Assembly: GCA_016929195.1 (NCBI GenBank)
Contig: JAFGJG010000184.1
Location: 1 to 35,075, forward strand
DNA length: 35,075 nt
Reading direction: 5' to 3'
From: Thermoleophilaceae bacterium
GTDB taxonomy: Bacteria > Actinomycetota > Thermoleophilia > Solirubrobacterales > Thermoleophilaceae
The notes beneath the pieces are model-generated. The model saw only the letters and a program-made list of their open reading frames with translations. It did no database searches and was not told the origin of the DNA. The translations under genes were made by a program, and so were the position numbers. Of this stretch, positions 2,153 to 5,600 are shown one piece after another. The first letter of the stretch is position 1, and each line of letters begins with the position of its first letter.

Positions 2153-3235
2153 GTGCGCCCGATCCACTACCTGGGGGTGTTCATTCCCGCGGCGGTCGCG
2201 CTCGACCTCGCCGGGGCCTCCCCCGTGCTCGTCTTCTCCGCCGCGGCGCTGGCCGTCATCCCGTGCGCCGCGGTGATGGGCGAGGCCACCGAGGCGATCG
2301 CCAGCCGCACCGGGCCGGGCATCGGCGGGCTCCTGAACGTCACCTTCGGGAACGCGCCGGAGCTGATCATCGCCTTCTTCGCCCTGATCGAGGGGCTTCA
2401 GGAGGTCGTCAAGGCCTCGATCGTCGGCTCGGTGATCGGGAACATCCTGCTGGTGATGGGAGCCTCGATGCTGGTAGGCGGCCTCCCCCGGGAGAAGCAG
2501 ACGTTCAGCCAGACCGCGGCCAGCGCGCAGTCGGCGATGCTGCTCCTCGCCACCGCGGCGCTCACGCTGCCGGCCCTGTTCCAGCTGATCCACGGCGGCG
2601 GGCTGCCGGCGATCGGGGAGGAGCGCGTGGACTTCGGCTCCGACCTCGAGAAGATCTCCCTCGGCGTCGCGGTCATCCTGCTCGTCACGTACGCGCTGGG
2701 GCTGCTGTTCTCGCTGCGCACCCACAAGGACGTCTTCAACCCCTACAGCGAGCACGCGGACGAGGAGGAGCACCACTGGACTCCCAAGCGGGCCGTGATC
2801 ATGCTCGCGGGGGCCGCCGTGCTGGTCGGCCTGATGAGCGAGGTCCTCGTGGGCTCGATCGAGGAGGCGAGCCACGACATCGGGCTCTCCGAGTTCTTCG
2901 TCGGCGTCTTCGTGGTTGCGATCGTCGGCAACGCGGCGGAGCACTGGGTCGCCGTGCTCGTGGCCGCAAAGGACAAGATGGACCTGTCCGTGAACATCGC
3001 GATCGGCTCGAGCGCCCAGGTCGCGCTGTTCGTGGCGCCCATGCTCGTCCTGCTCTCGTTCGTGTTCGGGCCCGAGCCGATGGCGCTGGTGTTCAACGGC
3101 TACGAGCTCGGCGCGCTCATCTTCGCGGTGCTGATCGCCAACCTCGTGGTGCAGGAGGGCGAGTCGAACTGGTTCGAGGGCGTGCAGCTCCTGTCGCTGT
3201 ACACCGTGCTGGGCCTCGTCTTCTACTTCGCCTGA
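2153..3235 (+). CDS. cax: calcium/proton exchanger (CAX, CaCA superfamily)
   Basis: Secondary antiporter exporting cytosolic Ca2+ (possibly other divalent cations) in exchange for H+ across the plasma membrane. The protein has 360 residues and about 11 hydrophobic helices. The two inverted alpha-repeats of the CaCA fold are visible: FGNAPELI near residues 65-72 and VGNAAEHW near 258-265. Their acidic Glu residues are the expected ion ligands. An acidic/His loop (residues about 199-207, EHADEEEHH) separates the halves, as in bacterial CAX proteins. Length and motif spacing match full-length family members. The start is GTG. The 3' end overlaps the convergent M28 peptidase gene by 13 bp. Confidence 0.93.
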   Translation: MRPIHYLGVFIPAAVALDLAGASPVLVFSAAALAVIPCAAVMGEATEAIASRTGPGIGGLLNVTFGNAPELIIAFFALIEGLQEVVKASIVGSVIGNILLVMGASMLVGGLPREKQTFSQTAASAQSAMLLLATAALTLPALFQLIHGGGLPAIGEERVDFGSDLEKISLGVAVILLVTYALGLLFSLRTHKDVFNPYSEHADEEEHHWTPKRAVIMLAGAAVLVGLMSEVLVGSIEEASHDIGLSEFFVGVFVVAIVGNAAEHWVAVLVAAKDKMDLSVNIAIGSSAQVALFVAPMLVLLSFVFGPEPMALVFNGYELGALIFAVLIANLVVQEGESNWFEGVQLLSLYTVLGLVFYFA

Positions 3236-4500
3236 CGCGACAGCGCGACGAGCGTCGCCTCGGTCGCCCGCGCGAGGCGGGTGAGCAGCGGCACGTTCAC
3301 GTTCGACAGCCGGTCGCAGGCCAGGTGGTAGCAGGGGTCGCGCGGGCGGCCGCCGGGCCCGCGGTCCGTCGCGCCGGTGAAGACGCCGCCCACCGGAACG
3401 CCGGCCTCAGCGAACGGCACGTGGTCGGAGGCCCCGCTCGTGTCGCCCGCCGGGTGCACGCGGCGCCGCAGGAGGCGCCCGAGCCGGCTCGCCCGCTTGC
3501 CGTAGACCGTCACCACGGGGTTGGGCGAGCCGACCATGTCGAGGTTCAGGTAGGAGCGGATCAGCCGTCGCTCGCCCGCCGGCAGCGACCCGACGTAGGC
3601 GCGCGACCCGTAGATGCCGAACTCCTCGACGCCCCAGAAGCCGAGCCGCACCGGCGCGCCGGGCGCGCGCGGCCCGATGCCCTGGGCGGTCGCCAGGAGC
3701 GCCGCGACGCCGCTTCCGTTGTCGTTGATGCCCGGCCCGGCGGGCACCGAGTCGAGGTGGCCGCCCGCCATCACCACGGCGCTGCCACGCCCGGCGCTCT
3801 GCCCGACCACGTTCACGTCCCGGCGCCGGCCGGTGGCCGCACGCACGCTGAGCCGCACGCGCGTGCCCGCGGCCAGGCGGTCAGCGAGGTCGCGGCGCAC
3901 GATCACCACGGGCAGCCCGAGTCCGGGCACGGTCAGCGTGGCCGTGGAGGTGGACGGCCGCCGCGCCGGGTCCGCGAGCAGCAGGGCGCTCGCCCCGGCC
4001 GCCCGCGCCGACTCCGCCTTCACGCGGAAGAGGCACCCCGCGGGCAGCGCGAGCACCACGTCGCCCGGCCGGACGCCGGCCAGCTCGGCCGCGCTGCAGG
4101 CGTTGCCGGCGGGACGCAGGGGGCCGTCGGCGCTCCCGGATCCTGAGAAGAGGATCGGCCGGAAGTCGCGCCCGTGCCGGAGCGCGCCGCCCGGGTCGAG
4201 GCGCACCGACGACGAGCGCTCCGACCACCACGGGTAGGCGAACGGCCGCAGCCGGACCGTCCAGCCGGCGCCGCGGAGCACGCCGGCCACGTAGCGGGCG
4301 GCCCGGCGGTAGCCGACGGTCCCGGCGGCGCGGTCGCCGCCGCTCCGGTCGGCGATCCGCTCGAGCGCCCTCAGGTGGCTGCGGACGAGCTGAGCGTCGA
4401 TGCGGACGGGCGCCGGGGCGGGGCGATCAGGGTCGTCCCCGCCCGAGTCGCACGCTCCCAGGGCGGCGGCGAGCGCGAGCGCGGCTAGGAGCGGCCTCAC
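3223..4500 (-). CDS. secreted M28-family zinc aminopeptidase lipoprotein
   Basis: Extracellular zinc exopeptidase related to Streptomyces griseus aminopeptidase/aminopeptidase Y. The signal peptide ends in a lipobox (LGAC, Cys17), predicting a lipid-anchored protein. A PA-like insert (about 115-225) precedes the catalytic core. The di-zinc ligands are in order: His248 (GGHLDS), Asp260 (GINDNGSG), Glu292-Glu293 (WGVEEFG; general base plus ligand), Asp321 (NLDMVG) and His392 (DPCYHLACD). SDHVPF and the paired C390/C395 are also typical. At 425 aa it is full length. It starts (GTG) 10 bp after the clpP stop on the same strand, so the two proteolytic genes are probably one transcript. The 3' end overlaps cax by 13 bp. 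Confidence 0.93.
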   Translation of the reverse strand: MRPLLAALALAAALGACDSGGDDPDRPAPAPVRIDAQLVRSHLRALERIADRSGGDRAAGTVGYRRAARYVAGVLRGAGWTVRLRPFAYPWWSERSSSVRLDPGGALRHGRDFRPILFSGSGSADGPLRPAGNACSAAELAGVRPGDVVLALPAGCLFRVKAESARAAGASALLLADPARRPSTSTATLTVPGLGLPVVIVRRDLADRLAAGTRVRLSVRAATGRRRDVNVVGQSAGRGSAVVMAGGHLDSVPAGPGINDNGSGVAALLATAQGIGPRAPGAPVRLGFWGVEEFGIYGSRAYVGSLPAGERRLIRSYLNLDMVGSPNPVVTVYGKRASRLGRLLRRRVHPAGDTSGASDHVPFAEAGVPVGGVFTGATDRGPGGRPRDPCYHLACDRLSNVNVPLLTRLARATEATLVALSRQAK

Positions 4501-4510
4501 CCACCGGAAG

Positions 4511-5149
4511 CTAGCTTCGCGCGAACCCCGACGGGTGCCGGCTGAGCTCGTGCTCCGCGATGATGCGGTCCACCAGCCCGTACTCCACGGCGTCCTCGGC
4601 GCTGAAGAAGCGGTCGCGCTCCATGTCGTCGTGGATCTGCTCGACGTCCTGCCCGGTGTGGTGCGCGTAGATGTCCTCGAGGCGTGCGCGCAGCTCGAGC
4701 ACCTCCTTCGCGTGGATCTCGATGTCGCTCGACTGGCCCTGGAAGCCCGACGAGGGCTGGTGGATCAGCACGCGCGCGTTCGGCAGCACGAGCCGCTTTC
4801 CGGCGGCCCCGCCCGCCAGGATCAGGGACCCGGCGGACATCGCCATGCCGTAGCAGATGGTCTGCACGTCGGGCCCGACGTACTGGATCGTGTCGTAGAT
4901 CGCGAGCCCCGCGTGCAGGGAGCCGCCGGGTGAGTTCACGTAGACCGACACGTCCTTGTCCGGGTCCTCGGAGGCGAGGTGGAGGAGCTGCGCCACGACG
5001 AGGTTCGCGAGGTCGTCGTCGATCGGCTGGCCGATGAAGACGATCCGGTCGTTGAGGAGCCGCGAGTAGATGTCGAACGAGCGCTCCCCTCGGTTCGTCT
5101 GCTCGATGACCATCGGGACGAGCGAGCTGTGGGCGCGGCCGATCTGCAT
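4511..5149 (-). CDS. clpP: ATP-dependent Clp protease proteolytic subunit ClpP
   Basis: Serine peptidase that assembles as a tetradecameric chamber and degrades substrates delivered by Clp AAA+ unfoldases. The catalytic triad is Ser105 (MAMSAGS), His130 (VLIHQP) and Asp179 ([18 protein letters not shown]). The oxyanion-region [17 protein letters not shown] is intact. The length (212 aa) is normal, and GGAG lies about 7 nt upstream of the ATG. It is not next to tig, clpX or a second clpP, and shares a probable transcript with an M28 peptidase. High-GC actinobacteria usually carry several ClpPs, so this may be a specialised paralogue. The promoter region is the 82-bp spacer that holds two GCAAC...GTTGC dyads. 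Confidence 0.96.
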
Positions 5150-5174
5150 GTCTCTGCTCCTTGTTCGCTATCCT

Positions 5175-5190
5175 GCAACCGTTCGGTTGC
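5175..5190. promoter_or_regulatory. dyad operator 1 between clpP and SRPBCC-arsR
   Basis: GCAACCGTTCGGTTGC has 7-bp perfect arms around a 2-bp centre, 26-41 bp upstream of the clpP ATG. The half site is shared with the second dyad whose centre is 25 bp away. Symmetry, duplication and the adjacent ArsR-type gene make it a probable ArsR binding site. That assignment is inference. Confidence 0.6.
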
Positions 5191-5199
5191 TGGACATTA

Positions 5200-5215
5200 G
5201 CAACTAGTTGGTTGC
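5200..5215. promoter_or_regulatory. dyad operator 2 upstream of SRPBCC-arsR
   Basis: GCAACTAGTTGGTTGC has the same length and the same GCAAC...GTTGC outer halves as the dyad at 5175-5190, and also contains the perfect 10-mer CAACTAGTTG. It ends 5 bp before the AGGAGG ribosome binding site of the SRPBCC gene. It therefore probably overlaps the transcription start and would allow autorepression of the SRPBCC-arsR operon. Confidence 0.6.
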
Positions 5216-5231
5216 ACATCAGGAGGATCGC

Positions 5232-5600
5232 ATGGAGCCTGTCGTCGAGCGCGAGGTGCTGCTGCCGGCCACGCCGGAGGAGGTCTGGGAATCGCTCTCC
5301 GAGCCGGAGTGGCTCGGCGCGGGCGCCCACATCGAGATGCGCCCGGCGGGCGAGGTGCGCGCGGGCGGGCGGACTGGCTTCGTCGAGTGGGTGGACGCCC
5401 CGGCCGGGATCGCCTTCTGGTGGAGCGAGGACGGCGGCGAGGCCACGCGCGTGGAGGTCGCGCTCGAGCCCGAGGGCGACGACACGCGCCTGACGGTGAC
5501 CGAGTCGCGGCCGCTGGCGCTGCTCGACGCGGTCGGCGCCGACCTCCACCTCGACCTGGGCGTGCCGCGCCCGGGCATGCCGGAGCTGCTGGCGCGCTGA
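5232..5600 (+). CDS. SRPBCC (AHSA1-like) domain protein
   Basis: Small START/Bet v1-like helix-grip protein of 122 residues with a hydrophobic ligand cavity. The N-terminal strand-helix signature is VEREVLLPATPEEVWESLSE, followed by WLG, an RAGGRTGFVEWVD strand, a FWWSEDGGEATRVEVALEPEGD hairpin and the start of the C-terminal helix. The start ATG at 5232 is chosen because AGGAGG lies 5 nt upstream; a GTG at 5208 would fall inside the operator dyad. The stop overlaps the arsR ATG by one base, giving the widespread SRPBCC-ArsR two-gene arrangement, here with SRPBCC first. The ligand is unknown. Confidence 0.85.
   Translation: MEPVVEREVLLPATPEEVWESLSEPEWLGAGAHIEMRPAGEVRAGGRTGFVEWVDAPAGIAFWWSEDGGEATRVEVALEPEGDDTRLTVTESRPLALLDAVGADLHLDLGVPRPGMPELLAR

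Follow-up and report, generated by a model that had tools for sequence, protein, structure and literature searches.

A conserved pair of inverted repeats between divergent clpP and SRPBCC-arsR genes is a candidate operator pair of a non-metal ArsR regulator in Actinomycetota

The 35,075-nucleotide stretch of Thermoleophilaceae bacterium DNA analyzed here (hereafter, the window) contains a clpP gene and a divergently directed SRPBCC-arsR gene pair, separated by a short gap that holds two matched inverted repeats (dyads A and B). We found that this dyad pair recurs at corresponding loci within and beyond the class, that it accompanies the ArsR gene rather than clpP genes in general, and that a -10 hexamer lies between the dyads on the clpP strand. 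Based on these comparisons, it is likely that the ArsR-family regulator, which lacks metal-binding residues, uses both dyads as binding sites and represses an accessory clpP together with its own SRPBCC-arsR operon.

Two matched dyads in the clpP/SRPBCC-arsR gap

The gap and the two sites have the following positions.

5150..5231 (82 bp): divergent intergenic region between clpP and SRPBCC-arsR, bounded by the start codons at 5149 (minus strand) and 5232 (plus strand)
5175..5190: dyad A, clpP-proximal, GCAACCGTTCGGTTGC, 25 bp from the clpP start codon; presumed ArsR operator
5200..5215: dyad B, SRPBCC-proximal, GCAACTAGTTGGTTGC, 16 bp from the SRPBCC start codon; presumed ArsR operator

Both dyads have the form GCAAC-N6-GTTGC and are offset by 25 bp start to start, leaving 9 bp from edge to edge. 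Their outer arms are perfectly matched and, when the inner six bases are included, symmetry extends to 14 of 16 positions in dyad A and 12 of 16 in dyad B. A first-pass annotation of the window had described two 16-bp GCAAC...GTTGC dyads with the same 6-bp inner spacing, 25 bp apart, in an 82-bp region between divergent genes; the dyads are present exactly as described, and the boundaries of the region, as set by the two start codons listed above, are also right. In the 3.46-Mb genome to which the window belongs, exact matches to GCAAC-N6-GTTGC (the only matches listed) occur at four places, two of them in this gap. At this frequency, a second copy no more than 50 bp away from another would be expected only ~6e-5 times, and a chance origin of the window pair is excluded.

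The two other exact matches lie elsewhere in the genome. One (C71:4835; L003 1501-1516) is ~26 bp upstream of a tRNA-Leu gene and may be a chance occurrence or a further regulatory target; the other (C78:21238) falls inside a nitrilase-like reading frame, named by eye.

Recurrence of the dyad pair among Actinomycetota

Using the paired dyad pattern in a search of DNA alone, with no gene as reference, we detected matches in 83 of 399 genomes of the class and in 26 of 396 genomes of the phylum (38 genomes are common to both samples); the reversed-pattern control matched 0 genomes in either sample. Loci were available for 30 places from the class search, and these encode SRPBCC in all 30 cases, ArsR in 29, and ClpP in 29. 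The locus without ArsR (L190) ends at a contig edge, and the one without ClpP is L199. The 26 loci from the phylum search include five inside the class and 21 outside it. Among the 21, seven of which were checked with Pfam, SRPBCC and ArsR are both present in 19, and an oppositely directed ClpP is encoded in 15, adjoining the dyads in 14 of these. At L220 (G559, 1-1567), an epimerase-like gene lies between the dyads and clpP, which is the second gene of the divergent operon. Both loci outside the class that lack ArsR have an explanation: the ArsR of L208 is 7.7 kb off, and L220 ends at the dyad. On another contig of the same genome (L227), an identical dyad stands at the start, and SRPBCC-ArsR comes next.

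A protein search with the window ArsR gave a match at E <= 1e-22 in 143 of 399 class genomes. Loci were picked by similarity rank and not at random (30 best matches plus 80 further regions); 134 loci were compared, and removal of ten redundant rows left 124. A divergent clpP is present in 87 of the 124, and 79 of these 87 loci contain two dyads with at most one mismatch (two exact dyads in 72; at least one dyad in 86). Among the eight remaining clpP loci, five (L121, L123, L124, L128, and L134) have two variant dyads at up to three mismatches, a tolerance that was set post hoc. The first-pass annotation had proposed a search of other clpP-arsR intergenic regions for the dyad, and the arrangement does recur there, also outside the class. 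Of the 37 ArsR-based loci with no clpP match, four (Saccharopolyspora) have two dyads at the same tolerance of one mismatch, nine have one, and 24 have none; many of these 37 encode distant ArsRs (~40-50% identity to the nearest query), and some are cut at contig ends.

The extended consensus of the dyads is Y-GCAAC-Y-N4-R-GTTGC-R, with A/T three bases further out as a preference only; the letters of its logo are partly fixed by the selection of loci. From start to start, the two dyads are offset by 24-29 bp or by 33-44 bp, with no case at 30-32 bp, and this spread led us to reject a fixed helical phasing. Given such wide variation in spacing, dyads A and B are probably independent dimer sites.

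One homologous locus in the same genus has a different structure (L010 1358-1680, G019): only the C-terminal parts remain of clpP and arsR and adjoin each other, and SRPBCC, the dyads, and both N-terminal parts are missing. This junction may be a deletion or an assembly fault.

The dyads accompany the ArsR gene

As a control, clpP genes were collected from 25 genomes of the family in which the ArsR match is absent, weak, or without clpP. Twenty-two of these genomes yielded 29 ClpP loci, and 28 were scored because one had no upstream sequence. No dyad was found upstream of a clpP that has no such ArsR beside it (0/28), whether or not the clpP is linked to the trigger-factor-like gene tig. A single stray dyad match was seen downstream of clpP in L153. 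Conversely, the exact dyad pair is present at 11 SRPBCC-ArsR loci without clpP, including four from Saccharopolyspora, in which the gene preceding the pair is leuB-like (named by eye) and has the same direction.

Paralogs of the regulator provide a further comparison. Five paralogs with a TRQA recognition helix and no clpP match (L111, L113, L117, L118, and L119) are accompanied by GCAAC-N5-GTTGC (two copies in three loci, one in two), and GCAAC-N6-GTTGC is absent from the 170 bp searched. Among eight paralogs with an R(P/V)A helix, seven (L097, L103, L105, L114, L116, L120, and L133) have GTAAC-type dyads upstream of SRPBCC, one of the two dyads being mixed or imperfect in most of these loci. 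The eighth, L098 (R-P-A helix), has neither GCAAC- nor GTAAC-type dyads at up to one mismatch. The half-site appears to vary with the recognition helix (Gln versus Pro/Val), which is a possible specificity code. In the 97 clpP-linked ArsRs, a simple motif search assigned Gln to this helix position in 80 and, tentatively, Arg in 14, and left three unmatched. On this comparative evidence, the dyads most likely belong to the adjoining ArsR.

The dyads could instead be bound by another regulator of clpP, for example a ClgR-like protein, with SRPBCC-arsR unrelated to them, and it is true that ClgR is an activator of clpP in actinobacteria. The lack of dyads at clpP genes without such an ArsR beside them, the presence of dyads at SRPBCC-ArsR loci without clpP, and the shift of the half-sites with the ArsR recognition helix all argue against this explanation, which we regard as very remote.

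clpP as a probable target of the regulator

In two genomes, clpP and SRPBCC-ArsR are naturally separated. The clpP of G468 keeps two dyads beside a polyphosphate-kinase-like gene (named by eye), and SRPBCC-ArsR, 7.7 kb off on the same contig, has one. In G565, two dyads remain at clpP, and SRPBCC-ArsR is a few hundred bp away with its own single dyad. This is the pattern expected if clpP is itself a target; together with the -10 hexamer counts given below, it makes clpP look like a genuine target. Both separations also speak against a possibility raised by the first-pass annotation, namely that only the second dyad matters.

To describe the position of the dyads relative to promoters, we removed redundancy and used the 97 loci that have clpP and a dyad pair, 84 of them from the class and 13 from elsewhere; start codons were assigned by rule (93 clpP, 90 SRPBCC). 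The median distance is 22 bp from the clpP start codon to dyad A (93 loci) and 17 bp from the SRPBCC start codon to dyad B (90 loci). With distances this short, any clpP promoter in the gap must overlap the dyads. Between the dyads, the clpP strand carries the -10 hexamer TANNNT in 94 of 97 loci, compared to a mean of 16.0 and a maximum of 29 in 1000 spacer shuffles; outside the class, 12 of the 13 loci have it. The search window includes two bases of each dyad. At the 11 dyad pairs without clpP, TANNNT is present in one on the clpP-equivalent strand and in three on the SRPBCC strand. The difference on the clpP strand (94/97 vs 1/11) gives a Fisher p of 8e-11 with kinship ignored, and the better guide is the count after thinning at 75% ArsR identity, when the hexamer is present in 47 of 49 clpP loci. 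In the window, the elements around the dyads are as follows.

5194..5199, minus strand: putative clpP -10, TAATGT, between the dyads and abutting dyad B
5217..5222, minus strand: weak putative clpP -35, CTGATG, 17 bp upstream of the -10; read by eye
5221..5226, plus strand: SRPBCC ribosome-binding site, AGGAGG; read by eye
5157..5162, minus strand: clpP ribosome-binding site, AAGGAG; read by eye

Seen along the clpP strand, dyad B fills the spacer between the putative -35 and -10, and dyad A covers the predicted transcription start.

Several results weigh against joint repression of clpP and SRPBCC-arsR. Three of the 87 clpP loci (L011, L086, and L087) have a single dyad even under relaxed matching, and L007 encodes a close ArsR with the same helix, yet neither a dyad nor an SRPBCC match. 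The dyad pair is not specific to clpP, as Saccharopolyspora and some other actinobacteria carry it without this gene. On the SRPBCC strand, TANNNT between the dyads is less clear (41 of 97 loci; shuffles: mean 13.9, maximum 26), and no SRPBCC-strand -10 was found by this rule, by eye, in the window. A strict consensus promoter scan of the window gap found none on either strand. Finally, in a quick tree of 70 of the 113 ClpP rows, the dyad-linked ClpPs are not united in one clade (4 changes), so that they may represent more than one orthologous line. The first-pass annotation had placed both divergent promoters in the 82-bp gap: a putative clpP promoter does lie on the dyads, and the SRPBCC side, with no -10 by rule, is less clear.

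L086 and L087 are related loci, in which very little DNA separates clpP from SRPBCC and only one dyad is present.

The presence of two dyads without clpP in Saccharopolyspora and others would fit dyads that serve only the autoregulation of SRPBCC-arsR, with the divergent clpP as a bystander. This is quite improbable given the excess of the clpP-strand hexamer at clpP loci over loci without clpP, and given that the separated clpP genes of G468 and G565 keep two dyads although the SRPBCC-ArsR operon has a single dyad of its own.

The ArsR might also be an activator, or a mixed activator and repressor, of clpP. In the window, dyad B takes up the 17 bp between the putative -35 and -10 of clpP, and MerR-type proteins activate from just such a position. 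Furthermore, and again in tension with repression, Rv2034 of Mycobacterium tuberculosis is an auto-repressor, yet passages of PMC3338718 describe it as a positive regulator of dosR, phoP, and groEL2. Against activation, the predicted clpP start would lie under dyad A, and the window promoter has a spacer of normal length. The same passages suggest that sites near the start repress and distant ones activate (PMC3338718), and the dyads are near their genes (medians of 22 and 17 bp). We consider activation unlikely.

Another explanation takes the dyads as RNA hairpins (attenuator or terminator) and not as DNA operators. A 61-nt stretch does fold better than its shuffles on both strands (z -3.9 and -3.1), as a palindrome would. 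However, the letters of the arms recur and not just their pairing, spacing varies, and with the predicted clpP start inside dyad A, dyad B would be untranscribed toward clpP. A search for a T-tract terminator found none, and a terminator at the dyads was rejected. The probability of the hairpin explanation is negligible.

Genes of the window locus

The dyads are flanked by four genes.

3223..4500, minus strand: M28-family peptidase, downstream of clpP
4511..5149, minus strand: clpP, 212 aa, accessory proteolytic subunit of Clp protease; retains Ser105-His130-Asp179
5232..5600, plus strand: SRPBCC protein, AHSA1 family, 122 aa
5600..5929, plus strand: ArsR-family regulator, 109 aa; start overlaps the SRPBCC stop; zero Cys, zero His

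The window ClpP belongs to the ClpP peptidases (PF00574, CLP_protease, 269.2 bits), and in the 97 aligned sequences the Ser, His, and Asp of the triad are kept in 96, 96, and 95, respectively, the remainder being gaps. A second clpP of the same genome is located on contig C130 next to tig (named by eye as trigger-factor-like), and the window clpP is therefore an accessory paralog. In the quick tree, tig-linked ClpPs form one group (Shimodaira-Hasegawa-like approximate likelihood ratio test [SH-aLRT] 98) with the window ClpP outside, so that the window gene shows neither the tig linkage nor the clade membership of a housekeeping clpP. Two or three ClpP genes are present in each of 15 other genomes with a linked clpP (15/15), which were chosen mostly for few contigs.

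The window ArsR is a member of the ArsR/SmtB family (PF01022, 23.5 bits, cut-off 22; NF033788, 70.7 bits, cut-off 55), and it scores below the curated cut-off of the SdpR autorepressor model NF033789 (44.4 vs 100 bits). It contains no Cys or His at all, confirming the first-pass statement that metal-binding residues are lacking; the Cys/His site of ArsR/SmtB metal sensors is absent from it, and metal sensing by this protein was set aside. Cys occurs in two of 97 ArsR orthologs (hit-bounded sequences). Two alignment columns of these orthologs are rich in His, one in 88 of 97 and the other, near the C-terminus, in 41% of filled rows; the former is, by eye, the Lys-His of the recognition helix, where the window ArsR has Gln. 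The SRPBCC protein matches PF08327 with 30.5 bits (cut-off 22.1). The adjoining ArsR and AHSA1 genes, which overlap at 5600, and the absence of a metal motif correspond to the ArsR-COG3832 (AHA1) pair, PF08327 being equated with COG3832 by family name (AHA1).

Among 78 other loci whose sequence extends 400 bp or more beyond clpP, none has an M28 gene beside it, and M28 was rejected as a conserved partner. The first-pass annotation had suggested one regulator for both the SRPBCC partner and a protease-peptidase operon: the comparative evidence supports clpP as a target, and the peptidase part is not supported. With M28 a neighbor in 0/78 loci, what recurs as the presumed target is ClpP rather than an operon of protease and peptidase.

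Proposed mechanism

An ArsR dimer on each dyad would repress two divergent, interleaved promoters together. Repression of the SRPBCC-arsR promoter would be autoregulatory, with dyad B just upstream of the SRPBCC start codon, and ArsR bound to dyad B (in the spacer) and dyad A (at the start) would block RNA polymerase toward clpP. We infer repression from the dyad geometry together with the autorepression of Rv2034 from a site near its start codon. The ArsR would be released by a signal, which the SRPBCC protein might bind or remove, and ClpP and the module would rise together; a ligand is plausible for an AHSA1/START-type protein.

A broader and speculative view, which we hold to be unlikely, is a three-gene stress module in which ArsR-AHA1 senses a hydrophobic ligand or damage and derepresses a dedicated ClpP, which may in turn remove the regulator or its targets, closing the loop. 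If this were true, ArsR-AHA1 pairs would gain a physiological output, accessory proteolysis, across Actinomycetota. Returning to repression of clpP and SRPBCC-arsR from shared dyads, the conserved operator pair would give the widespread ArsR-AHA1 (COG3832) pairs a recurrent target beyond their own operon, with a named half-site, and it offers a candidate regulator for the extra ClpP genes of these bacteria.

Comparison with known systems

ClgR is an activator of a family other than ArsR and acts at a different site. The clpP genes under its control in actinobacteria resemble the present case in having dedicated transcriptional control, and differ in that an ArsR and an accessory clpP are involved here.

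Rv2034 is a characterized relative, an ArsR-like regulator that shares its operon with Rv2035, a protein of SRPBCC type (polyketide_cyc2; passages of PMC3338718). Rv2034 represses itself through a palindrome near its start codon, with a footprint that spans -30 to +3, and its reported targets include the chaperone genes dnaK and groEL2; the authors suggest that distant sites explain its activation of, for example, phoP and groEL2 (PMC3338718). Compared to the locus studied here, the operator of Rv2034 (CCGTAAGT-N4-ACTTACGG) has another half-site, and the ArsR gene is the first of its operon (PMC3338718). A word search of the main text of that paper found neither 'clpP' nor 'protease'. A link between ArsR and ClpP would fit the control of chaperone genes that these passages describe for Rv2034.

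In Frankia, ArsR-like genes occur in potential operons with AHSA1 genes, with no known link between them, and the relevant part of that report does not discuss operators (PMC4531530). An account of the Bet v 1 fold places ArsR members among prokaryotic AHA1-domain proteins (in the part concerned of PMC2577659). No report joining ArsR, SRPBCC, and clpP was found in the open-access literature. The ArsR-AHA1 pair is thus known and probably autoregulated, and no account of its recurrent ClpP arm was found in that literature.

The pair itself was listed in 2009 as toxin-antitoxin-like, with metal motifs absent, its function left open, and antibiotic resistance or generic regulation suggested as roles (sections of PMC2701414); a word search of the main text of that paper did not find 'ClpP'. 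The module of the window has the same adjacent pair of a non-metal ArsR and an AHA1/START-type protein. In those sections, ArsR-COG3832 is strictly a unique pair (PMC2701414), whereas in Actinomycetota ClpP is a recurrent third member at the same putative operators.
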